64,000 nucleotides of DNA from Candidatus Symbiobacter mobilis CR (GTDB lineage Bacteria > Pseudomonadota > Gammaproteobacteria > Burkholderiales > Burkholderiaceae_C), in contig NC_022576.1 in NCBI RefSeq assembly GCF_000477435.1, positions 1,178,001-1,242,000 of the forward strand. The letters are read 5' to 3'. The notes under the pieces were generated by a model. That model was given only the letters and a program-made list of their open reading frames with translations. It did not search any database and was not told where the DNA came from. The number at the start of each line of letters is the position of its first letter. The stretch's first letter is position 1. The position numbers and the translations under genes are program-made. Below are positions 18,319 to 38,992 of this stretch, piece by piece.

Positions 18319-18981
18319 ATGTCTGCCGACGAGATTGCCGGGTTCTTCGCTGCCCTGTCGCGCACGCAACCCGAACCTCGCACCGAATTGGCGTTTTCCA
18401 GCCCCTTCGAGCTACTCACCGCCGTGGTGCTGTCGGCGCAATCGACCGATGCGGGCGTCAACAAGGCCACCCAGCGGCTTTTTCCCCTGGCGCGTACCCC
18501 GCAAGCGATGCTGGAACTGGGGCTGGAACGGCTGGAGCACCTCATCCGCACGATCGGGCTGTACCGCACCAAGGCAAGGCACCTGATCGAACTCAGCGCC
18601 ATCTTGGTTCAACACCACGGCGGCGCAGTGCCCCGCACCCGAACGGAGTTGGAAGCCCTGCCCGGCGTGGGCCGCAAAACCGCCAACGTCGTGCTACACG
18701 TGGCCTTTGGGGAATCCACCGTCGCCGTCGATACCCATGTGTTCCGCGTGGCGAACCGCACCGGGCTTGCGCCGGGGAAAACCCCTCTGGCCGTCGAACA
18801 CGCCCTGCTGGCGCGCATTCCCCCAGCCTTTTTGCACCATGCCCACCACTGGCTGGTGCTGCACGGTAGATACGTCTGCCTGGCCCGCAAGCCACGCTGC
18901 ATCGAATGCCCGGTGCAGTCCTATTGCCGTTTCGTGGGAAAACCCTGCCCCACCACGCCTACGGGACCTACGGGATATTGA
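18319..18981 (+). CDS. nth: Endonuclease III (DNA glycosylase/AP lyase)
   Basis: 220 residues. It removes oxidised pyrimidines from DNA. The helix-hairpin-helix L-P-G-V-G-R-K-T-A contains the catalytic Lys, and V-D-T-H-V-F-R contains the catalytic Asp. The 4Fe-4S cluster motif C-X6-C-X2-C-X5-C is intact at the C-terminus. The ATG at 18319 gives the usual N-terminus; an ATG at 18256 would add 21 Pro/Ala-rich residues. Its end overlaps the convergent gene by 14 bases. Confidence 0.94.
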   Translation: MSADEIAGFFAALSRTQPEPRTELAFSSPFELLTAVVLSAQSTDAGVNKATQRLFPLARTPQAMLELGLERLEHLIRTIGLYRTKARHLIELSAILVQHHGGAVPRTRTELEALPGVGRKTANVVLHVAFGESTVAVDTHVFRVANRTGLAPGKTPLAVEHALLARIPPAFLHHAHHWLVLHGRYVCLARKPRCIECPVQSYCRFVGKPCPTTPTGPTGY

Positions 18982-20767
18982 CCCAAAACCCCACACCATG
19001 GCCCAGGGTCTTGCTGGCCGCAGTGAAATCCAGGTATCGCGCCTTGTCGATGTGCTGCTGCAAGGCATCGCCACCTTCTGCGTCGAGCGAGGGTGCATAG
19101 AAGTACCAGCGGTTCGAGGGGTGATCCCAAGCCCACAACGTCAGCAAATTGTTGGGCACGACACCGGGATCCATCGGCAGCGTGTTGAGCGCATGGTTGA
19201 ACATGCGCGGCGTCATAGGCTGCCCTACCGCCGCCAGAGTAAAGCCCTTACGCAAAGCCAGAGTCTGCCCCGGCTGAAAGTCCTGCCCTACAACGGACGT
19301 CCCACTGGGTAGATTCAGAACGAACGATTTCGTCGTATTGACCCAAAACCCCTGCCCGGCATCGATCTGCGTGAGTACGTCATAGCCTTTGGACGCTGCA
19401 TGACTGCGCAACGCCGCTGCATCCATCAAGGGCGTGTAAAACCGCCAACGCAATCCTGCTGCGTTCCATGCCCACACCGTGCTCACCGCAGTGTTCTGAC
19501 CAAACAGGGTGTCGATGGCCAAGGGTTGGCGCGAGCCGTTGCCCAGCAGATTCCACCCGGCACACACGGGAAAAGCCTGCGTCGTCGTATCCGCTGCATG
19601 GAACCGCGCCGTGACTGTTTTCGATGCATCCAAGGTCACGGTACAGGTCGTAGCCGTTCCCGAACATGCGCCGCCCCATTCGGCCCAACGCCACGCTGGC
19701 TCGGCAGTCAAGGTGATGCGGGTGCCGGAGCTGTATTCCCCCGCGCACGTTTCGCCGCAATCCACCCCCCCCAGCGCCGAGCTGCGCACCGTGCCATCCC
19801 CTGTTTTCAGCACGGTCAGGGACACGATAGAAGCCTGTTTGCCGCCACGAACCATGCGCACCGCAGCAGACAGGCCTTGCGGATTGCCGTGGCTAGTGCC
19901 GTCGAATGCATCAACCACCCACGCGCTGTCGGCGAACCCTGTGACGGGTGTCGAAGAAAAAAACAGCGCACCTTGTGCGGTCGGCGCGTTCGGGAACATC
20001 CGGGGATGGAGCGCAGGCCCCAAACGTTCGTAATCGACCAAAGTCAGGAGTTCTGCGACCGTCGGGATACGCCAATCGGTATTCCCGCCCAAGCTACTGG
20101 TGAGTCCGCGTGCATCCTTCCACGCATATTGCGTCGGCGTCCCGCTGCAAGACCCCGCAGCCCACGACTGCCCCACAGCGCACCGCTGCCAGACCAGGCC
20201 CGTCGCAATGTCCGTGACGGTACCGTCGCCGTTCTCGGTGTATGCCGTATCGGACTTGGTCAAGGGCAATGCGGTTCCACGAACCAGGCGCGTGGCATGG
20301 ACACTCGTTCCCGCACTCACAGCCACGCTGACACCGTAGCCAAAATTCACTCGCCAGAAAGGGTTGGCTTCCCACCCTTGCGGATGCCCGATGACGATCG
20401 GCGTGCTCGTCCAGAACCCGAGCGCAGGGGCTGCGGGGAAAGCCTTCGTGTCGATGGCCGGTGATGCCATGGTTCGATCGACGAGGGAAAGCAGATCCCG
20501 AATATTGGGCAAGCGCCAATCGCTATGCCCAGCAAAGGTCGTCGTCGTCACCGCCGTGGTCGCCGCTGTTCCCGTACAAGTGTCGTTTTGCCAGGTTTGC
20601 CCCATCGCGCAGCGCATCCACATCAACCCTGTGGTCGGGTCGGTGACGGTACCGTCGCCATGATCCGTGTACGTTTTGACCACCGCAGCAGCACTGACCC
20701 CCACGGTGAAACAGAGAAGACAACCCACGCTCCAGCGCAGGAAGCTCGACGCAGAAAGCTTGCTCAT
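18968..20767 (-). CDS. Exported protein with two DUF1566 domains and two C-terminal W-N-L/G-F-W-V-N modules
   Basis: 599 residues with a signal peptide (cleavage near V-S-A-A-A). Two DUF1566 (Lcl C-terminal) domains cover about 31-165 and 170-310. Each begins D-G-T-V-T-D and contains D-W-R-L/I-P. A Cys-containing beta-repeat (about 317-389, C-G-E-T-C and W-G-G-A-C-S-G) follows. Two copies of a Trp-rich module come last (about 398-487 and 497-599), each with a central W-A-W ... W-x-F-Y and a final G-F-W-V-N. The same module ends the CAP protein at 25.4 kb. AGGAGGA precedes the start. It lies directly downstream of the secretin, so it is probably a secreted or surface product of that system. 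Function unknown. Confidence 0.82.
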   Translation of the reverse strand: MSKLSASSFLRWSVGCLLCFTVGVSAAAVVKTYTDHGDGTVTDPTTGLMWMRCAMGQTWQNDTCTGTAATTAVTTTTFAGHSDWRLPNIRDLLSLVDRTMASPAIDTKAFPAAPALGFWTSTPIVIGHPQGWEANPFWRVNFGYGVSVAVSAGTSVHATRLVRGTALPLTKSDTAYTENGDGTVTDIATGLVWQRCAVGQSWAAGSCSGTPTQYAWKDARGLTSSLGGNTDWRIPTVAELLTLVDYERLGPALHPRMFPNAPTAQGALFFSSTPVTGFADSAWVVDAFDGTSHGNPQGLSAAVRMVRGGKQASIVSLTVLKTGDGTVRSSALGGVDCGETCAGEYSSGTRITLTAEPAWRWAEWGGACSGTATTCTVTLDASKTVTARFHAADTTTQAFPVCAGWNLLGNGSRQPLAIDTLFGQNTAVSTVWAWNAAGLRWRFYTPLMDAAALRSHAASKGYDVLTQIDAGQGFWVNTTKSFVLNLPSGTSVVGQDFQPGQTLALRKGFTLAAVGQPMTPRMFNHALNTLPMDPGVVPNNLLTLWAWDHPSNRWYFYAPSLDAEGGDALQQHIDKARYLDFTAASKTLGHGVGFWVNIP

Positions 20768-20832
20768 GTGTCCTCCTAGCTTGCAGAAAACCAAAGCAGA
20801 AAAGGCCTCCCAACCCCCTTGGGCATTCTGCC

Positions 20833-22767
20833 TCAACGGCTGCCCACGCCGGGAGGAGGCTCAAATTCCATAGCAGGAGTGGAAGTATTCCCCATGGATC
20901 CAGCGGGTGAGCCGGGTACAGGGGGCGCATTCGGCGCCGTCGACGCAGGCAGGGCGCCAGCGCCAGGGGCCATGCCACCGACTGCAGGAGGGAACCGGGG
21001 AGCGACCGGCATCGGCGCAACATACGGCACAGGCGCCATGCCCCCGGAAGACACCGCCGTCTCAGGCCCCGCGTTGAATTCGAGTAGATCGGCTGTAGGC
21101 CGGTGCAGATTGCGCAGGATACGCGGGGTGATCGACAACAGGATTTCCTTACGCCCCCCCTTGATCGCACGGCTTCGGAACAGATTGCCAAGCACGGGGA
21201 TATCCCCCAGCCCGGGAAGATGGTGTCTGGTGTCCGTTTCATCCGCGCTGTACAGCCCAGCAAGCACCTGGGTCTCCCCATCCCGCAGGGTCAGCGTCGT
21301 TGCAGCGTTGCGGGTACCGACCTGGTACGCAGTCGTTCCCGTGTTGACGACGGTGTTCGTGATGGCACTCACTTCCAACGACGTCTTGATGACGACATCG
21401 TCGTCCAGGCCGATCCATGGCTCGAATTCGAGTTTGATCCCAACATCAAGGTAGCTCACCGACGAGGTAGTCGCCCCCGTGGTCGAACCTGGATAGGTCG
21501 TCGAGGTAATGACCGGAACCTTGTCGCCGATATGGAACTTGGCTTTTTCCCGGTTGCGTACACGGATGCGGGGATTGGCCAGGGTGTGGATGTCTCCAAG
21601 CTGGCGCTTGAGGTTCAACACCACGGCGGTGTCCAGCCCGCTGACGGAAACGGCCGCGTCATTGACCGCGCGCAAGGCTTGGAGCGTGATCGGACTGGCA
21701 ACGCCAAACGTCACCTGATCGGGGAAGCGCACGCCAATCTGGTTGTCGGTCGTGTGGTTGAACTCGAGGATTTCGACTTCGAGCATGACTTCCGGCTCGG
21801 GCTGGTCGTGCGCGGCGACCATTTTTTCTGCGAGCGCGACCTGCTCCGGGGTATCGCGAATCACGATCAGGTTGCGCTTGTCGTCGGTATGGATGTCCTT
21901 GATCTTGAGCACGTTTTTGAGCAGAGCCGAAAGCTGCTTGACGTCCGCGTTGGCGACGAAAAAGTTGCGCACCATCAAATCCTGGTACTCCTTGATCTTG
22001 TCCGCACGCGCCGGATAGATCAAGATGGTGTTGGCATTGACCACGCGCTGGGCGAGGCCGTTGGAGCGGGTGACCTGCGCGAGCGCTTCGTCAAAAGCGA
22101 CTTCGCGCAGAAAAACGCTGACCCGCGTATCGGGCCGCACGTCTCGGTCGAGAACGAAGTTGACCCCGGCATTGTTCGAGAGCGCGTCAAAAACCATCTT
22201 GAGCGTGGCATCGCGAAACACCATCGACACCGGCTTGCGCAACCCTGCTTCCAGCACCGGAAGCTGACCGGTATAGCCCATCTTCTCATCAAGCGCCCGC
22301 AGGGCTTGCCGGGCCGCCGCATGACCGGGGCGCTCCCCCAACAGTTTCTGGAACTTGGCGCGTGCTTCGCGATCCCTCCCCGCATCCGCCGCACGCTGCG
22401 CTTCATCGAACCAGTGCTGGTGGCGCTGCGCGGTCTCCACGCCCTGCAAGCCCTGTTGCGCACGGTCGTTGGCAGGGTCGAGCAGCAACACGCGGCGGTA
22501 TGCCTGGGCCGCTTTGTCCCATTGCTGCTGGGCGACCGCCGAGGCTGCATCGCCCAAGACGGCTGCAACGGCGCGCTCCCTGCTCGACGTAACGGCAGCG
22601 CGTATTTCTACGTTGTCCGGGTCCAGCTCCCGCGCTTCCAGAAAGCTGGCCAAGGCTGGCTCCCAGCGCTGGGCAGCCAGGTGCTCCCGCCCACGGACAA
22701 ACGCCTGCTGCGCTGCACAACCGGCAAGCCACACAACGAGGACACAGTAGCAAAAAATGCGGGTCAT
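20833..22767 (-). CDS. Secretin (GspD/MshL-like outer-membrane pore) with TPR N-terminus
   Basis: 644 residues. The signal peptide ends in the lipobox L-A-G-C, so it should be a lipoprotein. Three TPR-like helical repeats (about 25-150) precede the secretin periplasmic domains (about 190-340, with V-N-F-V-L-D-R-D-V). The secretin core (about 345-545) contains V-P-V-I-T-S-T and a typical ending G-D-I-P-V-L-G-N-L-F. The tail (about 560-644) is Pro/Gly/Ala-rich. TPR-bearing secretins occur in MSHA-like pili and some type II systems. The start overlaps the preceding gene as ATGA. Confidence 0.9.
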   Translation of the reverse strand: MTRIFCYCVLVVWLAGCAAQQAFVRGREHLAAQRWEPALASFLEARELDPDNVEIRAAVTSSRERAVAAVLGDAASAVAQQQWDKAAQAYRRVLLLDPANDRAQQGLQGVETAQRHQHWFDEAQRAADAGRDREARAKFQKLLGERPGHAAARQALRALDEKMGYTGQLPVLEAGLRKPVSMVFRDATLKMVFDALSNNAGVNFVLDRDVRPDTRVSVFLREVAFDEALAQVTRSNGLAQRVVNANTILIYPARADKIKEYQDLMVRNFFVANADVKQLSALLKNVLKIKDIHTDDKRNLIVIRDTPEQVALAEKMVAAHDQPEPEVMLEVEILEFNHTTDNQIGVRFPDQVTFGVASPITLQALRAVNDAAVSVSGLDTAVVLNLKRQLGDIHTLANPRIRVRNREKAKFHIGDKVPVITSTTYPGSTTGATTSSVSYLDVGIKLEFEPWIGLDDDVVIKTSLEVSAITNTVVNTGTTAYQVGTRNAATTLTLRDGETQVLAGLYSADETDTRHHLPGLGDIPVLGNLFRSRAIKGGRKEILLSITPRILRNLHRPTADLLEFNAGPETAVSSGGMAPVPYVAPMPVAPRFPPAVGGMAPGAGALPASTAPNAPPVPGSPAGSMGNTSTPAMEFEPPPGVGSR

Positions 22768-23312
22768 GGGGCGTTTTCCAAAGAAACGGTATGGAGGAAT
22801 CCGGTACTGCGGTGCCGGAATTGCAAGAGATGGTCTTCGACCACGCTGAGTTCCCAGTCCCCGTCTACGACGTTGCCGACGGACTCCACGGTCGTGACCT
22901 GTTCCAGGGCATCCACCAGAAAGAACCGCCGCTGAACCCCATCGTGGTATTCGCCGACGTAGCGCAGCCGAAATTCCGGGGGTGGCGGGGGGGGCACAGG
23001 CTGCGGGGACAACGGCTCGACCCTAGCAGGAGCAGGCAGCGCAAAAAGGTCGTCCACCGGCACATCCTCTTGCGCGGAGGACGAAGCGCGCACCGGCCAA
23101 GACACGACGGGCACTTCCATCGGGGTTTTTGCAGTTTTTGCAGATTTGGCGGCTGTTGCAGCTTTCTCCGCCCTCGCGGCAATACGTTGCGCAGGCTGTG
23201 CGGCAACAGGGGCCACAGGCTCTTCCTGCCCCACCCACCACGTAGCCCACAAGGTCAGCACAGCAGCCACCCACAGCAGCACGCGACGTATCCGATCGGT
23301 CTTCTGCGTCAT
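22764..23312 (-). CDS. PilP/MshK-like inner-membrane lipoprotein-type component
   Basis: 182 residues. One N-terminal membrane helix (about 9-28) is followed by a Lys/Ala-rich and then Pro-rich linker. A small C-terminal beta domain (about 110-180) begins F-R-L-R-Y-V-G-E-Y. The layout (anchor, flexible linker, compact beta domain) matches PilP/GspC-type proteins that contact the secretin. Sequence identity to a named family is not obvious. It overlaps both neighbours by four bases (ATGA), so it belongs to the five-gene assembly set. Confidence 0.6.
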   Translation of the reverse strand: MTQKTDRIRRVLLWVAAVLTLWATWWVGQEEPVAPVAAQPAQRIAARAEKAATAAKSAKTAKTPMEVPVVSWPVRASSSAQEDVPVDDLFALPAPARVEPLSPQPVPPPPPPEFRLRYVGEYHDGVQRRFFLVDALEQVTTVESVGNVVDGDWELSVVEDHLLQFRHRSTGFLHTVSLENAP

Positions 23313-23800
23313 TGGCAATAGAACACGAATTGGGCCACGGCACACACCGTCGTGGCACAGCGATGCATGGCCAGCGATTCCAACGCTGCGGCTTCGTCCT
23401 GGCGCAACACATCTTGCAGAAATTGCCGAATCGCCGGGTATTCCCCCGCCAGATCGGCGCGCACTTCGCACTTCCCTACCGGCCCAACGGCCTCGGGCGA
23501 GCGGTATTCGGCCTTGCGGATCAACACGGCATTGCGCTGCGCGGCAAGATGCCATTGCGCAATGCGATTACGCCAACCGGGCTGTGCGCGCAAATGCGCG
23601 GCAATCGCGTCGAGCCGTTCCTGCGACGTGGAAGCCGCAGCACGGGGCGGGGCGGCACGAGCGCTTTCCAGAGCGACCTGCGCCTGGGCTATCGAACGCT
23701 CCATGGGCTGCGCGACGAAATGCTCGAAAGCCCACTGGCCCCCGACCATCGCACACAGCACCAACCCCACCGCCACCGAGGGGCGAACGCCCCCCTTCAT
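23309..23800 (-). CDS. PilO/GspM-like assembly protein
   Basis: 163 residues. One membrane helix (about 9-28) is followed by a helical stretch rich in Ala, Arg and Gln (about 30-85). The C-terminal domain is about 80 residues, with E-V-R-A-D-L-A-G-E-Y-P-A-I-R-Q-F-L: the PilO-type pattern of a beta strand followed by a helix starting Y-xx-I-xx-F-L. Start and stop both overlap neighbours as ATGA. Three Cys near the C-terminus could form disulfides. Confidence 0.65.
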   Translation of the reverse strand: MKGGVRPSVAVGLVLCAMVGGQWAFEHFVAQPMERSIAQAQVALESARAAPPRAAASTSQERLDAIAAHLRAQPGWRNRIAQWHLAAQRNAVLIRKAEYRSPEAVGPVGKCEVRADLAGEYPAIRQFLQDVLRQDEAAALESLAMHRCATTVCAVAQFVFYCQ

Positions 23801-24396
23801 TGCAATACCAATCCCGGCAACCCCGGCTGCGATGCCAACCCCGGTACACACATGGCATCCACGACGGCATCGATACGTCCCTGCTCGCGCAGCGACTCCG
23901 ACACCAGAGATACCCGGCGCAACACAGGTTGCCCTTCAAGACGATGCAACCATTCGAGCACGGAACCGATATCGGGAGCGTGTACGCGAAGAATCACCCG
24001 GTGCCCTATTTCCTGCGCACGTTGATCCTGCGCATGGGAATTTTGCGTACGTTGCGGAGCACGCTGCTCCATGGCATCGACGACGACATCGGGTACCCGT
24101 GCCTTCTCCATCGCGGCCAGCACGGCGTCCCAGGGGAAAGCCAGACTGTCGATCATCTCGCGCACCTGCGTGACGACTTCAGCGGAGGCAGCGGACGTAG
24201 AGGTCGCCCCCTGCACTGGTTGCCGGAGCGCGTGCATCGCATCTTCGTGTTCCTGCAAGCTGGTCACCGCAGCCTGGTACCGCCAGGCACACACCCCCAC
24301 CTGCACCCCCAACACCAGCCCCAGGCTGGCTACGGCAAGCTGCACGCGCCGCGCACGCTGTGCGCGATTCAGAGCAAAGTCGAGTTCCAGTTTCAT
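23797..24396 (-). CDS. PilN/GspL-C-like assembly protein
   Basis: 199 residues. A short cytoplasmic basic segment (N-R-A-Q-R-A-R-R) is followed by one membrane helix (about 20-40), a helical linker and a C-terminal alpha/beta domain ending near A-M-C-V-P-G. In PilN the N-terminus binds PilM; the start K-L-E-L-D-F is compatible. GGGGGAA precedes the ATG. A 112-base gap separates it from the PilM-like gene, unlike the tight overlaps elsewhere in the set. Confidence 0.65.
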   Translation of the reverse strand: MKLELDFALNRAQRARRVQLAVASLGLVLGVQVGVCAWRYQAAVTSLQEHEDAMHALRQPVQGATSTSAASAEVVTQVREMIDSLAFPWDAVLAAMEKARVPDVVVDAMEQRAPQRTQNSHAQDQRAQEIGHRVILRVHAPDIGSVLEWLHRLEGQPVLRRVSLVSESLREQGRIDAVVDAMCVPGLASQPGLPGLVLQ

Positions 24397-24508
24397 CGAG
24401 CCAGTTCCCCCAGTCCGATGTCCTCGGAACCGGGGTATGTTTGCTAGCAATCAACAGCCCCATCCACCATCCCAAGCACAGCCCACTCTGGGTTCTCGAT
24501 TCCGAGCC

Positions 24509-25330
24509 TCATGCCGGCCACGAGGACAAGGCCACCTGCCGCAACCTCCAGGCCAGGCTGCCACGAATCTCCCGCTGAGCGCAGTGATGCACCGACCATC
24601 CAGCATGGCGCATCCCCTCCCAGATCCGCGACGATTCGCCACCGCCGACTGTCTCGAAATCGACGAGGACGATATCGCGGCAGGTATCCCCACGGCGCGC
24701 GGCTTCTTGCTCCAACCGCAGGCACAGGGCTTCGACTCGCCCGCCTTCTGCCGGGTCGGGCAGTACGAACCAGTCGAGCAACACCCCAGAGCTCCACCGC
24801 ATGACAGACAAGGTTGCCGCAGCAATGACGAGCCACATCTCGTCTTTGATGACGATCAATCCGCCAGCCAAGTCGGCGCCCATCGGCTTGGCGCTGGACA
24901 GCGTGCAACCCCGCTGCGCCATGCCTCGCGCCAAGGCCAACCATCCCGCATGAGGCCAAGACACGGCGACGAGGGAATCGGCCTGCGGACCCCAGCACCA
25001 GTGCCATTCCTGATCCTGATCGCCATAGGTGCGCCGTGCATATTCCCGCAGCGCAGTCTCCACTTCTTCCTCGGACAACGAACCCGCCGCCAGCGGAAGG
25101 ACGACGGGGCGCGCCCAATCCTCCCCAACGACGAGCTTCCAAGAACGGCACCGGGCCTTGCTGCCGTCGATCGCACGAAACAACTCGGCCACCCCGGCTT
25201 CGAATTGCTCGTGCGGCCCAGCTCCCTGCACATTCAGACAACGCAAAAGCGTACTTTTGCGCCAGCCGAATTCCAAGACGAGGAAGCGGGATGTCAGCAG
25301 CGCGCACCCACCGGCTTCCAACCCGGGCAT
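24509..25330 (-). CDS. PilM/GspL-like cytoplasmic component (tentative)
   Basis: 273 residues with no clear membrane helix apart from a hydrophobic stretch in the middle (W-L-V-I-A-A-A-T-L-S-V). The N-terminus R-F-L-V-L-E-F-G-W and the alternation of beta and helical segments fit an actin-like PilM or GspL N-domain. I see no clean nucleotide-binding motifs, so the call rests largely on position upstream of the PilN-like gene. The start is uncertain: ATG 25330 lacks a good ribosome site, and a GTG at 25369 sits directly on AAGGGAG. Confidence 0.5.
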   Translation of the reverse strand: MPGLEAGGCALLTSRFLVLEFGWRKSTLLRCLNVQGAGPHEQFEAGVAELFRAIDGSKARCRSWKLVVGEDWARPVVLPLAAGSLSEEEVETALREYARRTYGDQDQEWHWCWGPQADSLVAVSWPHAGWLALARGMAQRGCTLSSAKPMGADLAGGLIVIKDEMWLVIAAATLSVMRWSSGVLLDWFVLPDPAEGGRVEALCLRLEQEAARRGDTCRDIVLVDFETVGGGESSRIWEGMRHAGWSVHHCAQREIRGSLAWRLRQVALSSWPA

Positions 25331-25374
25331 GTAACGCGCCCGAGGGGGGGCGATTGGAGGGCTACGCACCTCCC

Positions 25375-27210
25375 TTATTTGTTGATCCAGAATCCCTCCC
25401 CACGCCGCAGAAATAGGTGTTCTTCGAGGTCAAAGGGCAGATAACCCATCTTGCTGGCATAGTCAGCCAATTCGGTACCTCCCTGCGCAGCCTTACTGGG
25501 CGCAAAAAAGCGCCATTTCCCTTCTTGCCCTTCGTCCTGCACCCACGCCCACAGGGTGCGGAAGCCAAACGACGCCAACGTGGTGTCGGGCGTGGTCACA
25601 TGCCAGCATTCCTCACTGGAATAGCACAGCGAGTGTCCTCCCACCGCGCCCGTAACCAAGGCTTCCTGGAACGCCGCCGGACTCATGGCCTCGCTGACGC
25701 CGAGCAAATTCCAGCCTCGCACCAGGGTCGTCGGAATGACCGAGGCAGGCACGCCGGTACGAACGGGTAAGTCCAGACTCGCTGTCGACTTGACCCAGAA
25801 CCCTTCGCCCCCGCCAATGCGGTCGAGAACGATGTACCCCCTTGGTGCAGCAAACGCCGCCAGTTCTGCATCGGTCTTCGACGGGGTATAGAACGCCCAT
25901 TTACTTTGGGACGCGACCCACTTCCAGACCGAAATCACCCGGTCGCTGACCCCAGCAATCGGCGCTTGCGGGGTGCCGAAACGCTCCCGCACCGCAAAGG
26001 ATTCGAGCATGGTGTTGCCGACGAGGTTCCAGTCCTTTTGTAGGGAGATCGTTTCGGGCACGGGAACCACAAAATCGATGACAGCCTGCACGGTTTGTCC
26101 ATCGCTGTCCTCGAACGTCACCGTGACTTCCGCTGCGGAAGCAACACGCACCTCGAAGACACCCGCAGAAACCATGGTCACAGAAGGAGCAGGCTCCGTG
26201 CCTTGGGCTGCACTCCAGCCCATGCGGGCATAGCGCACATCCCCATTGCCCCCAGTGACCTGAACACGAACCACGTCACTGGTGGCCACGCGCCGATACG
26301 GCATATCGACCACCATGCTGGAGTACGGCGCAGTCGTGAACGTCCAATCTTTGGTGAACTCTTCTCCATCGACTGCGCCCTGGAAATGCACTTGGTAGCT
26401 CGTTCCGTACTCAAGAACGTCTAGGGGAACGATGGCGGCTGCATTGCCAGGAACATGTGCATCCGTCGCCGCATCCAGCAATGTCGTAGCCAGCTCACTG
26501 CCCCCGACTGGGCGTACCGTGAAGGCATCGACCGTCAAGACAACACCAACCGGAACATGGATGCTGATGGGGTAGCCTACGCGATCCTTATTAGCCACGG
26601 GGTCCGGCACCTCCGTGTCAGAAGAAAAATCCCGCGTCACATCGCTTTGCCCATCGATCGGGTAGGTACCCACCCACCCAGCGGGCATCGTGACGATGTT
26701 GTCTTGCGTTGCCGCCAGATTGATGACGACGTTGGCATAAGCACCCACATCCCCGGCGACGCCCACACCGACTTCCGCGACTTGGGGGTTGAGCACGCCG
26801 AAGCGGTGGTAAATCGCCTGCACCAGCCCCAGGACGGCTTTTCGCCCCGTATCGATCCCGGAATCGGTGCCGCCATGAATCACTTCGGCGACAGTCTGCC
26901 AGGTGTACCCAGCCGCCCTCGTGCGATCTGCCACCCATTCGCCCGTAAACCCAGGCTTGCCAGGCGTCTCTTCATGCGCAATCGCATCAGTGAGATTGGT
27001 TTGCAGATAGGTCGAATGCGCCTGCGCCGCGACGTCAAGGATGCCACTGCGCGCTACAACCGGAAGCCCAACCAGCGCACGGATGCGATTGGTTTCCGCC
27101 ACGACCTCTTCGGGTTCCGCAGCGGCATGCGCTACCGAAGCCGCCAGACACATCCATACGCCACACGCCACAAGCGCGGCCCCGACGATGCTGCCCCGGT
27201 ACGTACCCAT
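25375..27210 (-). CDS. Exported CAP/SCP-domain protein with Ig-like domain and two W-N-L/G-F-W-V-N modules
   Basis: 611 residues with a signal peptide (to about A-H-A-A, residue 30). A CAP (cysteine-rich secretory protein, YkwD-type) domain covers about 31-170, with A-H-S-T-Y-L and H-E-E. An SbsA-type Ig-like domain (about 205-293) and another beta domain (about 300-385) follow. The C-terminus holds two Trp-rich modules (about 388-482 and 495-611) like those at the end of the DUF1566 protein. GGAGG precedes the ATG by six bases. It sits directly upstream of the secretin set in the same direction, 45 bases from the PilM-like start. Probably a surface or secreted partner of the system. Confidence 0.82.
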   Translation of the reverse strand: MGTYRGSIVGAALVACGVWMCLAASVAHAAAEPEEVVAETNRIRALVGLPVVARSGILDVAAQAHSTYLQTNLTDAIAHEETPGKPGFTGEWVADRTRAAGYTWQTVAEVIHGGTDSGIDTGRKAVLGLVQAIYHRFGVLNPQVAEVGVGVAGDVGAYANVVINLAATQDNIVTMPAGWVGTYPIDGQSDVTRDFSSDTEVPDPVANKDRVGYPISIHVPVGVVLTVDAFTVRPVGGSELATTLLDAATDAHVPGNAAAIVPLDVLEYGTSYQVHFQGAVDGEEFTKDWTFTTAPYSSMVVDMPYRRVATSDVVRVQVTGGNGDVRYARMGWSAAQGTEPAPSVTMVSAGVFEVRVASAAEVTVTFEDSDGQTVQAVIDFVVPVPETISLQKDWNLVGNTMLESFAVRERFGTPQAPIAGVSDRVISVWKWVASQSKWAFYTPSKTDAELAAFAAPRGYIVLDRIGGGEGFWVKSTASLDLPVRTGVPASVIPTTLVRGWNLLGVSEAMSPAAFQEALVTGAVGGHSLCYSSEECWHVTTPDTTLASFGFRTLWAWVQDEGQEGKWRFFAPSKAAQGGTELADYASKMGYLPFDLEEHLFLRRGEGFWINK

Positions 27211-30432: not shown

Positions 30433-30577
30433 AGAACCTATTTCAGTAGGCAGGCGAGCCGAAGCAGTGTGCGTGGCGCCGGAGCGCAGGAACCGGAATG
30501 TACTTACGGTACATGAGGATTCCGAGCACCGCCGCCGCGTGCAATGCGATGGCGCAGCCCCTACTGGAATAGGTTCT
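30433..30577. repeat. 145-base imperfect palindromic element with inverted ends
   Basis: The ends AGAACCTATTTCAGTAG (30433-30449) and CTACTGGAATAGGTTCT (30561-30577) are inverted repeats matching at 16 of 17 positions. The inner sequence is also a long imperfect palindrome, closing on ATGTAC-TTACG-GTACAT (30498-30514). It has no ORF. It resembles a small dispersed repeat (MITE or REP type). Its right end reaches into the chpA stop codon. Copy number cannot be judged from one window. Confidence 0.75.
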
Positions 30578-33500
30578 AAGCCGCAGCGCAGTACTGGTGC
30601 AACAGGCCAATCAGCTCGTCTTCGGGGTACGGCTTGCCGAGGTAGTGGTTGACCTGGAGATCATGGGCGTAGTCGCGGTGCTTTTCGGCGATGCGCGAGG
30701 TGATCACGATCACCGGCAGCGCACGCAAACGCTCGTCTGCACGGATATTGCGGATCAGGTCAAAGCCGTCCATGCGCGGCATTTCGATGTCGGAGAGCAC
30801 GACAACGGGCCGCTGCTCCTGCAACAGCTCCAGCGCGTGCAACCCGTCGTGCGCGAGCACGACCTCAAAACCTTCGCGCCGCAGTAGCCGTTGCGTCACC
30901 CGGCGGACGGTGATCGAATCGTCGACGACCATGATCAAGCGCGAAGCCGTTGCCTCCGGCGCCACCATTGCTCCAGGCACTGCCCCCGGCGCCTGGGCTG
31001 CTGCCGCTGTACCGGCATGGGCACCCGCCGCAACAACCACGCAAGGCGGTGCAAACCGGGCACACTGACCATGCACCTTGGCTACAGCCAAGGGGTTGTA
31101 GATCAGGAACACCGTCCCCGAAGCCTGCACCGACATGCCAACCAACCCCGGCATCCGTGCCAGTTGGGGCCCCAGGTTCTTGACAACGGCTTCACGGTTC
31201 CCCAGCACTTCTTCGACATGCAGCGCCATGCGTTGCCCTGCGCTACAAACGATGGCGACCGAGGCATTGCGGCTCGGCGTCGATTCATGCCCTGCGCCCG
31301 GAACGCACTGCCACAGCGCATCGGCCCAATACAGGTCGATGTCCTGCCCCGCATAAGGAAAGCGGCCTGTGGCGTAGGCAGACTCCAGCGCGCTCCACGG
31401 CAGCCGCACGACCCGTTCGATCAAATGCGTGGGCACCCCGAACACCATGGCACCTGCACGCAACATCACCACCTGCGTCACGGCTGTCGTCAACGGCAAC
31501 ACGAGGTGGAAGCGGGTGCCTTCCCCACTGCGGGTATGCAGGTCGATGCGTCCGCCAGCGGCGTGGACATCGTTGCGGACGACATCCATGCCCACCCCAC
31601 GGCCAGCGAGTTCCGTCACCGACTCTGCCGTCGATAACCCCGGGCTGAAGATCAACTGGGCGATGTCCTCTTCGGACAACACTTGGTCGGCAGTGACCCA
31701 CCCCTTGCGAACGGCCCGTTCGCGAATGGCAGCGATGTCAAGCCCACCACCGTCGTCGGCAAAGGTGATCCGTACATCATTGCCCTGCTGCGCCAGCGTG
31801 ATCGTGATCGTCCCTTGCGATGGCTTCCCACGCTCCAGGCGCGTGGCCTCGTCTTCCATGCCGTGGCACACCGCATTGCGCAGCAGATGTTCGAAAGCGC
31901 TGCCCATCCGATCAAGCACGCCCCGGTCGATGTCCTGCGCGCCACCGATGATCGTCAACGCAACCGATTTGCCGGCTTCCCTCGCAGCCAGCCGCACCAC
32001 GCCGTGCAGGCGCTCTGCGATGCTGTCGAATTCAACCATCCGGGTACGCAACAAATCCCGTTGTAGTTCGCGGGCTTGGCGCAACTGGGCGGCCAGGGCG
32101 TCCTGCACCCCGGACACCGACTGCTGCACTTGCCCCTGTACCGTGCCGATGTCGTGTACGGACTCGGCCAACATCCGGCTCAGCTCCTGCACGCGGGTAT
32201 AGCGGTCGAATTCCAAAGGATCGAAGCCCTTGTCGCTCTCGCGCGTCAGAGCCAGGCGGGACTGCAATTGGGTATCGGTTTGCAGTTCCAGATCGCGCAA
32301 CTGCTGGTGCAGCCTATCGAGATTGGCAGTGAGGTCGTGCATGGCGCCGCGCAACTGGTCCACGTGCGACTCGATGCGCGCACGCGCGGTCAGCACCTCC
32401 CCGGTTTGCCCAATCATGCGTTCGATCCACTGCGAACGCACCCGCACCGTCTCCGTTCCCCCCTTCCGTACTGCAACAGGAGCGGGAGCAGCAGCCTCGG
32501 AAACATCGGCAGCGCCAGCCGTTGCCGGCACTTGTTCCGGAAAAACGATGGCCGATGCCGCAGCCGCACACACCCCCTCCATGCGGTGGACGATGGCATC
32601 GAACCCCGCAAGCAAGGCAGCCATGGCCGCAGGCGAAGCAGTGTCTACATGCTCCGCAGCGGATTCGAGCCGGTGGAGCATGTCCCCGAGCCGCATCGCC
32701 CCGGCAAGCCGCGCCCCCCCTTTGAGGGTATGCAAATCGCGCAATACGGACTGTCTGGCAGCCAGGTCTGCCGGGTTCGCGCTCCACTGGCGCAACGCGG
32801 CGCCCAGGCGAGGAAGCAGTTCGTGGGCTTCCTCTTCAAAGATGGAGAACAGATCGACATCGGGGGTATCTTGCAGCGCAGAATCTTCCCTGCTCTGTGG
32901 CGCGACGACCTCTGGTTCTTGGGCTTGCCGTGTTCCGACCGCCAGGGCAAGGTCCGACTGGCCTTGCGCCACGGATTCGGCAAGGGCTGCAAGGTGGACG
33001 GGTTCTTCCTGCATCGCAGCCATGTCGATTGATGCAGCATCGTCAGGATGCCCCACTCGCTCTGCCAAGGAGTCCGCTGACGATGGCGGAAACGGCTCCA
33101 CGGCTGGCAGAGCGTCCAATGCATCAGCATCATTGTGTGCATCGACGGGCAAATCGAGATCCGGCAATTCCAGGGGAGGCAGGGCGGCAGGGCTCCAATC
33201 GCCGAAATCCAGCTCGATGGGCGCCAGGTCTTCTTCCGCCACTGTGGCGCCCGTGGCGATATCCCTATCGCTACGACCCATGGTGGGGTCCATGGCTGGT
33301 TCCATGGTGAAGTCCAAGCCAAGATCGCCGCCAAGGTCCATGCCAAAGTCGGCATCGAAGCCTGCATCGGCATCTTGCATGATGGGCCGGGACTCTTCCG
33401 GGGCATCCAGCTCGATGGCCAGCATGTCGTGCAAGGCGGAAAGCTGGGCAGGGTCGGCATCGGGCGTCTGCACTACACCAAAGGGCAGATGCCCTATGCC

Positions 33501-36500
33501 AAAACCATGCACCATGGCTCGCATGGATCGGGCCACCTGCACGAACAGCCCTTCCTGTTCCGCAGTGCGCACCCCGGCTGGCTGCAAATGGGCCAGCGCA
33601 TGTTCCAAGGCACGGGCTAGCTCGGACAGCGCATGGAACCCCACTGTCGCCGAACTGCCTGCCAGCGAATGCACCAAACCGATGGTCGAATCCGGCACAC
33701 GCTGGTGCGGCGCGGCGGCGCCCTTTTCCAGTTCGTCGACCAGACGCAAGGACCAAACTTCCGCTTCAGACAGGTAGACCTCATGCAAGGCTTTCCCAAT
33801 GCCTCCCTCCTCTGTAGACGACGCCAGTTCCGGTGGTACTTCAGGCAAGGCTGCCATCGCAATGTCTTCGCCCGACGCTGCCCAGGGCGCCAGCGTAGGC
33901 AACTCCGCAAGCATGTCGCCCACTGCCTCGGTGGCGTCTGCAAGAACGTCCACGGGTGCTTCCGTCCATGCCGCAGCAGACGCAGTGTCTGCCTCCGCTG
34001 CCGGAATCAGGTCTACGGAAAAATCGAGTGCCAGGTCATCGGATTCCAGGGGCGCTTCAGCATCCCGCGATTCCTGGGGTTCTTGGAGTTCCTGGGGTTC
34101 CAGAGGCTGATCAAGGACATCGGGCGCATGGCATTCTTCGACATCCTCGGATTCGTCGACTTCCCCGAATGCAGCCAGCGCCCCGGCGTGCGCTGCTGCG
34201 TCGATCGGTGACGCAACTTCCAGCTCCGGGGGCAGTGCTGCATCCGGCTCCATGGCAGGAGGTTCCACCGCCAGCACCTCTGCTGCTGGCTGCTCTATGG
34301 AAAACAGCGGAGTCGGCGCAGTGTCTTCGGCATCGGATTCGTGCAGCAACTCCGGGGCCAAATCCGGGGTCGGCTCGGGCATCGGCGCGGCGACGGGTTC
34401 CGGCGCGGTATCTTCCCCCGGCAGTGGCAGAGCGATCAGCTCGTTGTCCATCCGCATCCGATCCGCAGCCTGGCGAAAGGGCTGTGCCGCCCACGCGCCA
34501 TCGTCGTTCTCCGCGATGTCTTCAATCCACCGCGCAAAACCCTGCATGGCCCGCGAAGACAGCGTCAGCACCTCCGCGCCGATCGGCTTTTGCTGCGCGA
34601 GCCAGGCATTCATCAACTGTTCCATCGCCCACGCAGCCTCGCCAAACTCGACCAACCCCACCATCCGGGAACTGCCCTTGAGGGTATGGAACGTCCTGCG
34701 CAGACGGGTCTGCTGGTCGATATCCGCAGGACGGGACTCCAGATGCGAGATCGCGGCGATGCCGCTTTGGATGACATCGCGCGCCTCTTCGAGAAAGATG
34801 TCCCGTAGCTCATCCTCGTCTTCTTCGTCGCTAGGCGCAGGCTCGGGTGCAGGTTGCGGTGTGGGCGGGGAAGCAGGCGCCACGGGAGGCAGCGGTGAAG
34901 CGACCGGTGCTGGCGCAGGCGCCTCGTCTACAGGCGTTTTGTGGCGCCCCATCAGCGACCGGAATTCCCCCAACTGTTCGTCATACACGAACAACTGTTT
35001 GGCCAATTCCCGCTGATAGCCCAACATATCGACAAGGAAGCCCAGGGCGCCAAGACTGTTGCCGATCTTGTCGAAAACGCCAGTGCGGGCTGCAGCATCG
35101 GCATCGATATCGTCTTCCAGACACTGTTCGACACGAGAGCGAATCCGCACGGCAGCCATGGCTGCCTGATCAAGCCCCAGCACCGAAAACACGCCGCGCA
35201 TCTGCGCCAGGCGCATCGGCACATCGTGCAGGGCAGTCTTGTCCACCGGATTGCGGAAGAAGGCATCCAGCGTCGTTTCGATCTCCGCCAGCGAAGCCGC
35301 CAGCTCTTGCACCACGCTGCCCATCACCTGCCGGTCGCTGACACGGCGATAGAGATCTTCCATCCACGCATCCAGCGGTTCCGAAGCCGCTCCGCCACAC
35401 ACCGCGTCGATGCGCTGTGCAAGCCGGGCACTGCGGTCCTCCAAAGCGTCTTCCGTGCCCAAATCTTCGTAGGCTGCATCCAGATACAACACCGAGGTCG
35501 CGACCTCCAGCGCCAACGCTGGCGTTGGGGGCTGCCCGGAACGCTGTACTTGCACCATGGACCGCAGCAAGGCATCCGCCAGATCCTTGCTTCCCGGATG
35601 CAGCCGAATCATCGAATCCGTGACCAACGTCATCTGATCCGCAGACTGCTTCATCCTGGTCATATCGCCACCGGACAACGCAGACCACGTCTCGGTCAGC
35701 GCCGCAATGCGCTTGCGCGCCTGCGCCACCAGTGCGGGGTCGAAACGACCCAGGCAAGGCCGCTCCACATCGCGAACGACAACCCCACGCAGCCCGTAGC
35801 TTTCCCGCGCCACCGACAAAATGCTCGGCGCAGGGCGCACAGGCTCGGTTTGCGCACAGTGGAACAGCAAGTCTTGCGCAAGCCGCTCGGAGATGTCCGG
35901 CACTCCCTTGGCCAGGCTACGAAATTGCGTCAGGATGCGCGAGGCGGAACGCTTTGCATACACATCCGCGCTCGCGCTGACGGTGGCCATCGCTTCGAAA
36001 TACGCCGCGCACAGGCACCAGAATCCACGCGGGCGCGATTCCTGCTGCGCTGCGGCAAAGCCCAGGCTGATGTCGGAGAGGATCTGTGCCGAAGGCCCGT
36101 GCCCCGTCTTGACGACCTGGAGCACAAAGCTGTCGATGCGCGCACACACCGGCGCGTCATACGCCAGGGGGCGGATCGTCGGCGCCAGGGGAATATCCCG
36201 CCACCGCCACGGAAACACCCACAGGTCTGCGGGGTGGATGCGCTCTTCGCCCAGCTCCTTCAACACGTCGCGGTACTGCGGGAACAGCGCGACAGCCGAA
36301 GTCGTCCGCCCCTTGAGCAAGCCTTCCAAGTATTCGATGAGGGCAAAACTCGCGCCTTCGAGCTTTTGGGCAGCCCGCTCATTGCAAGTGCCCGGGCGCT
36401 GCACGAACTTCTGCGCGAGCATTTGCATCGCACGCAGTACTTTGGCTGGTACTTCCAACCCCACCATTTCTAGCGCCCCGACGGCTTGGTGCAACTGCTG

Positions 36501-36698
36501 CCGGGCAATGCGCAACTGGCTTGCATCCAGCGCGGCAATGTCCGACCCACGCGATGCCTCGGCATCGCGAACGAAACGCCGCAGAGCCGACACCGCGCTG
36601 TCGAGCGACTTGCGCAGTTCGTCGAGCACCCAGGCTAGGGGGCCTAGATCCGATTCCACGGGGGGAGAACTGCCGACAACGGCCACAGAAGGCTGCAT
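30576..36698 (-). CDS. chpA: ChpA/PilL hybrid CheA-type histidine kinase of the Pil-Chp system
   Basis: 2040 residues. ChpA takes signals from PilJ and phosphorylates PilG/PilH to control type IV pilus twitching. The N-terminal 560 residues are helical, degenerate Hpt-like repeats. Clear Hpt sites follow: H-T-L-K-G-S-S near 670, H-S-L-A-G-S-S near 1012 and H-T-L-K-G-G near 1321, separated by long acidic Pro/Glu-rich linkers. CheA dimerisation and ATPase regions follow (H-L-L-R-N-A-V-C-H-G and G-R-G-V-G-M-D-V-V). A CheW-like domain and a C-terminal receiver domain (V-V-D-D-S, from about 1918) end the protein. It is the last gene of the pil-chp operon; no Shine-Dalgarno sequence is seen. Confidence 0.95.
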   Translation of the reverse strand: MQPSVAVVGSSPPVESDLGPLAWVLDELRKSLDSAVSALRRFVRDAEASRGSDIAALDASQLRIARQQLHQAVGALEMVGLEVPAKVLRAMQMLAQKFVQRPGTCNERAAQKLEGASFALIEYLEGLLKGRTTSAVALFPQYRDVLKELGEERIHPADLWVFPWRWRDIPLAPTIRPLAYDAPVCARIDSFVLQVVKTGHGPSAQILSDISLGFAAAQQESRPRGFWCLCAAYFEAMATVSASADVYAKRSASRILTQFRSLAKGVPDISERLAQDLLFHCAQTEPVRPAPSILSVARESYGLRGVVVRDVERPCLGRFDPALVAQARKRIAALTETWSALSGGDMTRMKQSADQMTLVTDSMIRLHPGSKDLADALLRSMVQVQRSGQPPTPALALEVATSVLYLDAAYEDLGTEDALEDRSARLAQRIDAVCGGAASEPLDAWMEDLYRRVSDRQVMGSVVQELAASLAEIETTLDAFFRNPVDKTALHDVPMRLAQMRGVFSVLGLDQAAMAAVRIRSRVEQCLEDDIDADAAARTGVFDKIGNSLGALGFLVDMLGYQRELAKQLFVYDEQLGEFRSLMGRHKTPVDEAPAPAPVASPLPPVAPASPPTPQPAPEPAPSDEEDEDELRDIFLEEARDVIQSGIAAISHLESRPADIDQQTRLRRTFHTLKGSSRMVGLVEFGEAAWAMEQLMNAWLAQQKPIGAEVLTLSSRAMQGFARWIEDIAENDDGAWAAQPFRQAADRMRMDNELIALPLPGEDTAPEPVAAPMPEPTPDLAPELLHESDAEDTAPTPLFSIEQPAAEVLAVEPPAMEPDAALPPELEVASPIDAAAHAGALAAFGEVDESEDVEECHAPDVLDQPLEPQELQEPQESRDAEAPLESDDLALDFSVDLIPAAEADTASAAAWTEAPVDVLADATEAVGDMLAELPTLAPWAASGEDIAMAALPEVPPELASSTEEGGIGKALHEVYLSEAEVWSLRLVDELEKGAAAPHQRVPDSTIGLVHSLAGSSATVGFHALSELARALEHALAHLQPAGVRTAEQEGLFVQVARSMRAMVHGFGIGHLPFGVVQTPDADPAQLSALHDMLAIELDAPEESRPIMQDADAGFDADFGMDLGGDLGLDFTMEPAMDPTMGRSDRDIATGATVAEEDLAPIELDFGDWSPAALPPLELPDLDLPVDAHNDADALDALPAVEPFPPSSADSLAERVGHPDDAASIDMAAMQEEPVHLAALAESVAQGQSDLALAVGTRQAQEPEVVAPQSREDSALQDTPDVDLFSIFEEEAHELLPRLGAALRQWSANPADLAARQSVLRDLHTLKGGARLAGAMRLGDMLHRLESAAEHVDTASPAAMAALLAGFDAIVHRMEGVCAAAASAIVFPEQVPATAGAADVSEAAAPAPVAVRKGGTETVRVRSQWIERMIGQTGEVLTARARIESHVDQLRGAMHDLTANLDRLHQQLRDLELQTDTQLQSRLALTRESDKGFDPLEFDRYTRVQELSRMLAESVHDIGTVQGQVQQSVSGVQDALAAQLRQARELQRDLLRTRMVEFDSIAERLHGVVRLAAREAGKSVALTIIGGAQDIDRGVLDRMGSAFEHLLRNAVCHGMEDEATRLERGKPSQGTITITLAQQGNDVRITFADDGGGLDIAAIRERAVRKGWVTADQVLSEEDIAQLIFSPGLSTAESVTELAGRGVGMDVVRNDVHAAGGRIDLHTRSGEGTRFHLVLPLTTAVTQVVMLRAGAMVFGVPTHLIERVVRLPWSALESAYATGRFPYAGQDIDLYWADALWQCVPGAGHESTPSRNASVAIVCSAGQRMALHVEEVLGNREAVVKNLGPQLARMPGLVGMSVQASGTVFLIYNPLAVAKVHGQCARFAPPCVVVAAGAHAGTAAAAQAPGAVPGAMVAPEATASRLIMVVDDSITVRRVTQRLLRREGFEVVLAHDGLHALELLQEQRPVVVLSDIEMPRMDGFDLIRNIRADERLRALPVIVITSRIAEKHRDYAHDLQVNHYLGKPYPEDELIGLLHQYCAAA

Positions 36699-36769
36699 AC
36701 AGGGGAGATGAATTCAAAAAATGCGTGCAATCGGTGCGTACTGGATGGGTGCGTACGGAACCAGGTCAT

Positions 36770-38992
36770 TCAGGCAATGCGAAATCGGGCAACAGACTGG
36801 CGCAATTCCTCCGCCATCTTGGAAAGCTCCCGCACTTGGGCTGCCGTCGATCGGGTTCCCTCGCTGGTTTGCTCGGTCACCGCAAAAATGTGCTGGATGT
36901 CCCCGGCCACCTCGTTGGCCAAGCTGGCCTCGCGCGAGGTCGATACCGAAAACTGCTCGATCATCTCTGCCAATCGGCGCGACACCTGGTCAATTTCCGT
37001 CAACGCAGTACCGGCGTTGTCCGACAACCGCGCCCCTGCGACTACGCCTTGCGTCGAGCGTTCCATCGCGCCGATGGCATCCTGGGTATCGGTCTGAATG
37101 GCTTTGACGAGCGCGGCGATCTGGCGCGTGGCGTCAGCAGAGCGTTCCGCCAGACGCTGTACTTCTTCAGCCACCACAGAAAACCCCCGGCCTGCATCCC
37201 CCGCCGAGGCCGCTTGAATGGCTGCATTGAGCGCAAGTACGTTGGTCTGTTCGGTGATGTCCGAAATCAGTTCGGTGATTTCCCCGATCTCCTGCGATGA
37301 CTCTCCCAGCCGCTTGATGCGCTTGGAGGTCTCCTGGATTTGATCGCGAATCGCGTTCATCCCGCCGATCGAATTCTGCACGGCGTGCAGCCCGACTTCT
37401 GCGGCCTGCAACGACTGCCGGGCGACTTCCGCAGACGCCTGCGCCTGGGCAGACACGTCGTTGATCCGGCGAGCCATATCCAGGATGGCGCGGCCCGTCT
37501 CGCGAATCTCGTGCAACTGCTCTTTGGACGCAACGAGCAGTTCGGTGGAGGTGGCGTCCACATCACCGGTGGTCTGCGCCACGCGCGAGGCAGTGCCTTG
37601 CACATTGCCGACGAGCACACGCAGCTCTTCGACCGTGTAGTTCACCGAGTCGGCAATCGCCCCAGTGATGTCTTCGGTCACGGTCGCTTCCTGGGTCAGG
37701 TCCCCTTCGGCGACGGCTTGCAGCTCGTTCATCAATCGCAGAATCGCCGCCTGGTTGGCGTCGTTGACACGCTTGGCCTCCCGCTCCTGGCGCAGCGCCT
37801 GCTGGCGTTGCGCTTCGGCGTAGCTTTGGCGCCTACGGCTCTCCTGAAGCTGGGCATAAGACAAGCCCGCAGCAGCCAACAAGGCGATGACCACGCACAG
37901 CGCGAGCAGCAGGCCGAACAGCAACCCCGTCTGGGAGCCTAGGGCCAACTGCAACCCTTCGAGATCGCCGCGCAACCGCTCCGCATCGGTAGCCATGGAA
38001 GGCTGTACCGCACGCACCACAACGATGGCGGATGCCCCCTCTCGCAGAACCAGCAGTTGCTCGCGCAACGGCGCCACTATCGCTACCAACGCTGGCGGCA
38101 CCCCGGCGGAATCGGCCTCTGCAGCCAGCGTTGCCAACAATTCGAGGTCCTGGCCAATGGCCGTATCCAGCCGCTCTGGCTGCGCCTGCACATCTTGCAC
38201 CCACCCTGCGATACGCTGTGCCAACAGCAACCATCGCACGCTGGCCGCCAAAGGTACCGTCGTTTGCGATTCGGAGAGCAGCGCCGTCAGCCACTGCGTG
38301 GCGTTGCCTTGCATATCCATCGCCTGCCGACGCACTGCCTGCGCGGCATCAAGGGCGCGGGACATGGCCGCACGTTGGGCTGCCATCTTTTTGGCGCTTT
38401 CCTCCAAACGCACAAGTGTCGCCAACGATCCTTCCATCCGCAAACGGTACGGTTCGCGCAAGGCAGGAATTTCCTCGACGCCAGACGCCGAAGGCTGCAC
38501 GCCGACTGCGCTCAACGCCCGCACGATGCGCCCAAGCTCCTCGACGCTATGCACCAGGTCGGCGGCAAAACGCAATTCCCCGCCCACCATGTGGGACAAG
38601 GCCTTGCCGACGCGCTGTGTGTGCATCAAAGCTTGTCCGATCACCGCCAACTGCTGGGCCACCATCTGGGTACGCCCCAACCCCGATACCGTCACCCCGG
38701 CCAGCGCCAGCAATGCTCCCACCAGCAAAACGGAAAAGAACCGCTGATGCTGCGCAACGGTTTTCTTGCCTAGGAAAGGGATGCGAACCAACTCCAAGGC
38801 GTCGGTCGATGCCTGCGGGGCATCGGCTTTCTCGGACTTGGGGTGCGAATCCGACCGGAGAACGGAATCCGACACGGGAATGGATCGGGCAGCATCTTCC
38901 CCCGAGATCAGCGTCGACTCGGGCGCCGAAAGACTCAACCGGGAATCCGGAGACGCTTCCCCCATCCAACGCTGTACCCATCCCCAAGCCAT
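36770..38992 (-). CDS. pilJ: Twitching-motility methyl-accepting protein PilJ
   Basis: 740 residues. An unusual cytoplasmic N-terminal extension of about 85 Ser/Asp-rich residues precedes the first membrane helix (about 86-104). The periplasmic PilJ-type four-helix domain follows, then a second helix (about 360-385), a HAMP-like region and the methyl-accepting signalling domain. The hairpin region includes [16 protein letters not shown]. The start overlaps the pilI stop as TGATG. PilJ is the receptor feeding ChpA via the CheW-like PilI. Confidence 0.94.

Follow-up and report, generated by a model that had tools for sequence, protein, structure and literature searches.

An operon-like run of genes occupies positions 18968–27210 on the minus strand of the window, the whole stretch of 64,000 nucleotides analysed here. 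As shown in Table 1, two tail proteins flank the platform and secretin genes. Read from 27210 down to 18968, the gene order is CAP, the gene in the pilM position, the pilN-, pilO- and pilP-like genes, the TPR secretin gene and the double Lcl_C gene. The bounding genes are nth-like and rpoD-like (by eye), and both lie on the plus strand. The tRNA and Rfam scans of the 64-kb window gave no matches. At 30576–40399, genes for a large CheA-like hybrid kinase, a chemoreceptor and CheY/CheW-like proteins form what looks by eye like a Pil-Chp chemosensory cluster.

The TPR secretin that an earlier note had read from the letters of this DNA was borne out by matches to four domain models, and its N-terminus has a lipobox-like LAGC (by eye). 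The four genes from pilN to the secretin are joined, as that note had described, by three ATGA overlaps (pilN/pilO, pilO/pilP and pilP/secretin). The platform genes had been called PilM/PilN/PilO/PilP-like. The N, O and P assignments stand, with support solely from profiles built with relatives, and PilM identity was not supported, as no relationship to PilM or GspL appeared in the Pfam, PDB and hhalign comparisons. The protein in the pilM position had no Pfam, NCBIfam or PDB match, also with a profile of 24 relatives. Compared as single sequences with the genome's own PilM and GspL, it gave hhalign E values of 0.34 and 0.39, respectively, and thus no detectable homology. Its gene has a GTG start 5 bases past the CAP stop, and an alternative ATG is found at 25330.

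The two flanking proteins were confirmed as a CAP-domain protein and a double-DUF1566 (Lcl_C) protein, and the latter also has an InlB-type repeat (Flg_new_2, 5e-7). The ATG codons of the CAP and Lcl_C genes are preceded by GGAGG and AGGAGG, respectively. Both proteins have Sec-type N-termini, judged by eye.

Table 1. Features of the operon-like run (window positions) and of the third set of machine genes (genome positions)
Feature	Position	Strand	Basis
CAP-domain protein, 611 aa, two-module tail at end, predicted cargo/surface protein	25375..27210	-	Pfam CAP 2.7e-7
Two-module tail of CAP protein	25375..26010 (5' limit approximate)	-	Module BLAST and tail profile
Protein in pilM position	24509..25369	-	Placed between CAP tail gene and pilN
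PilN-like platform protein	23797..24396	-	Profile of 24 relatives vs Myxococcus PilN (3jc8), 1.3e-4
PilO-like platform protein	23309..23800	-	Profile of 24 relatives vs Myxococcus PilO (3jc8), 4.5e-7
PilP-like protein	22764..23312	-	Profile of 24 relatives vs PilP, weak: 4av2 0.011, 2ivw 0.015
TPR secretin, predicted outer-membrane pore	20833..22767	-	Pfam Secretin 4.7e-38, STN, Secretin_N, TPR
Double Lcl_C (DUF1566) protein, 599 aa, two-module tail at end, predicted cargo/surface protein	18968..20767	-	Lcl_C 4e-57, two stretches
Two-module tail of Lcl_C protein	18968..19606	-	300.6 bits, model 4-205 of 205
gspG and gspF of third set	genome 1873627-1875242		Similarity to relatives' cluster genes
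gspE of third set	genome 2762883-2764487 (start chosen by hand)		
Three prepilins of third set	genome from ~2315875-2317262 (~2315.9-2317.3 kb)		

The two-module tail

Both flanking proteins share a tail of about 200 residues made of two Trp-rich modules. That each ends in two copies of one module, as had been noted from the sequence, lies beyond chance by BLAST. The first modules of the CAP and Lcl_C proteins matched each other at E 1.6e-21 and the second modules at E 2.6e-14, and the module pairs within the Lcl_C and CAP proteins matched at E 1.6e-10 and 3.5e-11, respectively. The best pairing is first with first and second with second, and the tail is therefore shared as a two-module unit. 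The tail match of the CAP protein (246.8 bits) runs to within one model position of the end. No Pfam or NCBIfam model covers the tail in the window proteins.

A search with the Lcl_C tail returned 33 proteins. Each has the two modules, complete or in part, and the module pair ends at the final residue in 27 of them. The tail sits on unrelated proteins: in precomputed Pfam, the N-terminal parts of the 33 homologues are diverse (Lcl_C, RCC1, fn3, filamentous-haemagglutinin type, cyclophilin and others), and Laminin_G_3 and NHL are further N-terminal domains found on tail proteins. Among the matches listed from 7995 scored candidates, the CAP protein has at least 49 relatives, at least 28 with the tail and at least 21 without it, and the tail is C-terminal in all 28 tail-bearing relatives among those listed. 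The fetched genome stretches yielded 38 distinct tail genes after removal of one duplicate: 33 encode a C-terminal tail, and the other five a tail near the N-terminus.

The proteins with N-terminal tails are encoded at L116 6097–8382, L122 8080–11823, L068 3984–6251, L141 6499–9939 and L151 9275–12706, and those of L141 and L151 share 69% identity along almost their full length. A crude survey of signal peptides, in which many starts were miscalled, gave 18 of 38 tail proteins vs 94 of 284 other genes. The tail profile matched designed Kelch propellers, but no individual stretch passed alone, and the match is only a lead to the fold. Short remnants of tail genes are present in the window genome (G000:C1:2211459-2211935 and 648576-648704), suggesting turnover of tail proteins.

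In literature searches that for most papers covered listings, neither a shared tail of this kind nor a tail-linked type II system was recognised. The tail family appears new, and the machine is the known part.

The machine and its relatives

The window genome (3.0 Mb, one contig) contains three secretins, three GspF genes, twelve N_methyl matches and ten matches to the T2SSE family, nine of them over the cut-off. Loci were labelled as T2SS, T4aP or third set from sequence similarity and by eye. The orthodox T2SS has gspD/E/L/M/N at about 1843–1849 kb, gspF at 1934 kb and pseudopilins at about 2495–2497 kb. The T4aP has pilBCD at 1140 kb, pilMNOPQ at 1625 kb and minor pilins at about 1170 kb. 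Outside these loci lies a third set, at three genome places and with no adjoining secretin (Table 1). The ATPase, GspF and prepilin genes that the earlier note suggested seeking were thus located elsewhere in the genome as cognate gspE, gspF, gspG and three prepilins. With the secretin locus included, the machine genes are split over four places. An incomplete system was ruled out by the presence of these parts.

Homologous TPR secretins occur in contiguous clusters of other Burkholderiales, and at a threshold of E <= 1e-60 the secretin was present in 109 of 300 genomes of the order and in 102 of 249 genomes of family f21. A survey of 65 loci, mostly top-scoring and several of them ending at contig ends, found a cognate GspE in 55, GspF in 53 and GspG in 48. 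The usual order in relatives is gspG–gspF–gspE–four genes–secretin–prepilins, and the interval between gspE and the secretin gene was exactly four genes in 47 of 67 loci. In the clusters inspected, GspE, GspF and GspG were closer, among the matches listed, to the window genome's third set than to its T2SS or T4aP genes.

Gene sets of this make-up have been printed before. Passages of PMC2864759 report for C. metallidurans a small gsp cluster made up of gspD, gspEFG, a further two copies of gspG and four conserved hypothetical genes, and a stretch of the CH34 megaplasmid shows the same order, in agreement by gene content. Ralstonia clusters of similar make-up are named 'unorthodox T2SS' in passages of PMC5080846 and PMC6428702, where four hypothetical genes separate gspE from gspD in one of them (PMC5080846 / PMC6428702). 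Passages of PMC6668835 cover T4aP, T4bP, MSH, T2SS, Tad, Com and archaeal types, and a TPR-secretin type is not named in them. The match of the window machine with the printed 'unorthodox T2SS' is one of gene content. The proposal that this was an undescribed system was given up, since its gene set agrees with those of the clusters described in these passages (PMC5080846, PMC6428702, PMC2864759). The machine itself is therefore not new; it is a relative of the type II secretion machine that has been little studied. The papers searched gave no characterised substrate of the 'unorthodox T2SS'.

The window set shares with the 'unorthodox T2SS' of Ralstonia and the second small gsp cluster of C. 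metallidurans CH34 a gene content of GspE, GspF, GspG, a secretin, extra GspG-like pilins and four hypothetical genes, which in the printed clusters lie between gspE and gspD, as far as these are laid out in passages of PMC5080846 and PMC2864759. It differs in its dispersal over four genome places, in a secretin that falls into a clade apart and in the flanking tail proteins. With the orthodox T2SS (GspC–M), which is present separately in the genome, it shares GspE, GspF and secretin homologues and a major pseudopilin of GspG type that exceeds the curated cut-off: the third-set GspG (1874.8 kb) scored 166.8 bits against TIGR01710 (cut-off 88.85). However, the other parts lie under the T2SS cut-offs. 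The secretin scored 157.0 bits against GspD TIGR02517 (cut-off 351.35) and GspF scored 220.9 (cut-off 424). GspE scored 436.9 (cut-off 630.25) in a gene model judged to start about 84 residues late, and a full-length GspE of a relative was likewise below 630.25, at 494.6. The PilN/O/P-like platform and the TPR in the secretin are further differences from the orthodox machine.

The order N–O–P–secretin and the weak PilN, PilO and PilP profile matches are shared with the type IVa pilus (PilMNOPQ), but the window secretin is under the PilQ cut-off (TIGR02515, 161.6 vs 284.35 bits) and the genome has separate T4aP loci. The MSHA pilus includes a TPR protein, MshN, according to a passage of PMC6668835. 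A secretin accompanied by platform genes and TPR is common to that pilus and the window set, whereas the window secretin itself holds the TPR and stays under the cut-off of MshL (TIGR02519, 90.7 vs 250.2 bits).

Several features were observed around TPR secretins in other lineages. PEP-CTERM-like proteins, recognised by pattern, lie near 10 of the 65 clusters (L060, L063, L067, L070, L071, L075, L163, L169, L177 and L182), and at L063 the assignment was confirmed by Pfam and a subtilase adjoins. Different cargo may accompany this machine in other lineages. In four of ten TPR secretins scanned (L067, L071, L069 and L232), the pore domain is followed by a cohesin domain, which is seen in none of the four tail-linked secretins among these ten and not in the window secretin; RefSeq labels some of the cohesin-bearing proteins 'cohesin domain-containing protein'. 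The cluster of L232 (Janthinobacterium lividum plasmid p356839) is flanked by RHS-repeat and FG-GAP-like proteins. An rhsB gene adjoins a Ralstonia 'unorthodox T2SS' in a passage of PMC6428702.

Linkage of tail genes to the secretin

At a threshold of E <= 1e-10, the tail profile matched 3 of 300 genomes of the order, 1 of 9 of family f38, 6 of 249 of family f21 and 1 of 369 of the class sample, which included the window genome (G000) itself. The tail is thus rare and scattered among the sampled genomes, and none was found in 72,556 plasmid records. The tail-positive genomes are eight distinct ones. The earlier note had held that module proteins occurring mostly apart from the secretin set would speak against it, and the outcome was mixed. 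Five of the eight (G000, G124, G067, G424 and G475) have a TPR secretin, at 738 bits or more, four of them with one of the tail-linked clade. The other three (G317, G449 and G534) have none, their best scores being 96–128 bits with every first-look candidate scored. The majority of tail loci counted do not adjoin this secretin type. The tail is not exclusive to this machine, because the set in G317 and G449 is, by eye, MSHA-like and that of G534 is an orthodox T2SS.

Tail loci within 10 kb of such a secretin numbered 2 of 6 in G000, 3 of 6 in G124, 3 of 6 in G067, where one of the three is a partial module match, and 1 of 1 in G424. Together, 9 of the 19 tail loci of these four linked genomes lie within that distance. 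Against uniform placement the combined P was 1.4e-12, a value that would be too small if the tail genes arose by tandem duplication, and 2.7e-4 on the basis of at least one locus per genome. None of the nine tail rows of G475 was seen near its secretin, which is located at a contig edge. In the order sample, the secretin was present in 3 of 3 tail-positive genomes vs 109 of 300 overall (about 0.05, by hand). In f21, 3 of 6 tail-positive genomes have it against 102 of 249 in the family as a whole, which is no enrichment, and genome-level co-occurrence was set aside as weak proof of the link.

Breaks or splits of the usual gene order coincide with the loci that have tail genes (window, L055–L057, L065, L068 and L157). 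At L065 (13775–13999) and L157 (1905–2180), a tail gene and gspG are separated by the gene of a small protein that contains a PPPVP motif and looks exported (by eye).

In a 68-secretin tree, all seven secretins that have a neighbouring tail gene group together (SH-aLRT 97), and after removal of the outgroups and three difficult rows the seven-member group had bootstrap and SH-aLRT values of 100 and 100, respectively. The hosts belong to families f1 (window), f21 (G067 and G424) and f38 (G124), with three metagenome contigs. L055–L057 were retrieved by similarity to the window secretin and are not independent members, so independent support for the clade comes from L065, L068 and L157. The second TPR secretins of G067 and G424 fall away from the clade, that of G475 lies outside it, and the tail-linked secretin of G124 separates from those of its genus mates.

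The trees of the other machine parts do not confirm one clade. The N+O+P trees gave two groups, {L065, L068, L157} and {window, L055–L057}, with supports given as 100/97 and 100/100 for the two groups. They were joined as one in 0 of 200 bootstrap trees, and a single tail-linked clade was not rejected (p-AU 0.157). In the GspE and GspF trees, L065 groups with L157 and the copies of the window genome are unplaced, and the GspG and prepilin trees gave no signal. The GspE, GspF, GspG and prepilin of the window genome showed no grouping with the copies of tail-linked clusters, and co-phylogeny of these parts as support for the link was not borne out for this genome. Since the secretins form one clade and N+O+P form two groups, the linkage arose either once or at least twice.

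Proposed function of the tail and the machine

We propose with moderate confidence that the operon encodes an outer-membrane pore and an inner platform for one branch of the 'unorthodox' T2SS, with the flanking proteins as its predicted cargo and the tail as a putative export or anchoring tag. A shared targeting or anchoring domain, as the earlier note had suggested, is favoured because the tail occurs on many proteins and is linked to this secretin type elsewhere. The cargo would cross the inner membrane through Sec and then fold in the periplasm. The secretin or the PilN/O/P-like ring would recognise the tail, and a short pseudopilus of the GspG-type pilin, powered by the cognate GspE via GspF, would push the cargo out through the pore, so that the scattered parts would work together as one machine of export. 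The tail may afterwards remain as a surface anchor or depart with the cargo.

More tentatively, any protein that gains the tail might become a substrate of the tail-linked TPR secretin, which would make this a modular export-and-display system of Burkholderiales with a logic like that of the T9SS CTD. The T9SS CTD, GlyGly-CTERM/rhombosortase and PEP-CTERM are C-terminal sorting tags common to many unrelated exported proteins. Like them, the tail is one C-terminal unit on many unrelated proteins. Unlike them, it has about 200 residues in two Trp-rich modules, is without a short cleavage motif and is tied to a TPR secretin in some lineages. The sequence comparison with these tags consisted of the Pfam and NCBIfam scans of the window proteins.

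The main rival, which we find less probable, is that the tail is instead a general surface-binding or anchoring domain, for instance with a cell wall, polysaccharide or outer-membrane partner, that is exported by whichever type II-like machine the host has. The tail would then adjoin the secretin through one common function in adhesion or matrix, and the machine would not read it. The tail-positive genomes without a TPR secretin, at least two of them with other machines, fit this explanation, as do the five of 38 tail genes with the tail near the N-terminus and the adhesive or extracellular types among the N-terminal domains (Lcl_C, fn3, RCC1, Laminin_G_3 and NHL). However, a general anchor does not require the C-terminal bias, the linkage in four genomes or the single clade of linked secretins.

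A pilus-like appendage carrying the flanking proteins as tip adhesins, which the earlier note had offered beside dedicated cargo, now appears improbable. In the solved-structure matches the platform genes are nearer to PilN/O/P than to GspL/M, as a pilus would predict, but the cognate major pilin is over the T2SS GspG cut-off and the kindred clusters are in print as T2SS, in the passages concerned (PMC5080846, PMC6428702, PMC2864759). Some genomes also have six or even nine tail loci that differ greatly in make-up, which would be odd for tip adhesins. Hitch-hiking, in which tail genes and this secretin branch share mobile or rearranged segments with no joint function, is likewise very unlikely: it would suit the coincidence of tail loci with broken or split gene order and the sparse scatter of the tail among taxa (3/300, 6/249, 1/9 and 1/369), but several lineages have tail genes inside the set or at both its edges with different N-terminal domains, and the plasmid records hold no tails.

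To our knowledge, substrate recognition in type II secretion is a long-standing question, and we know of no common signal. If the tail is indeed an export tag, a signal that can be read from sequence on unrelated proteins would make recognition directly testable. The tail would also provide a handle on the 'unorthodox T2SS', present in about one-third of the sampled Burkholderiales genomes (109/300).
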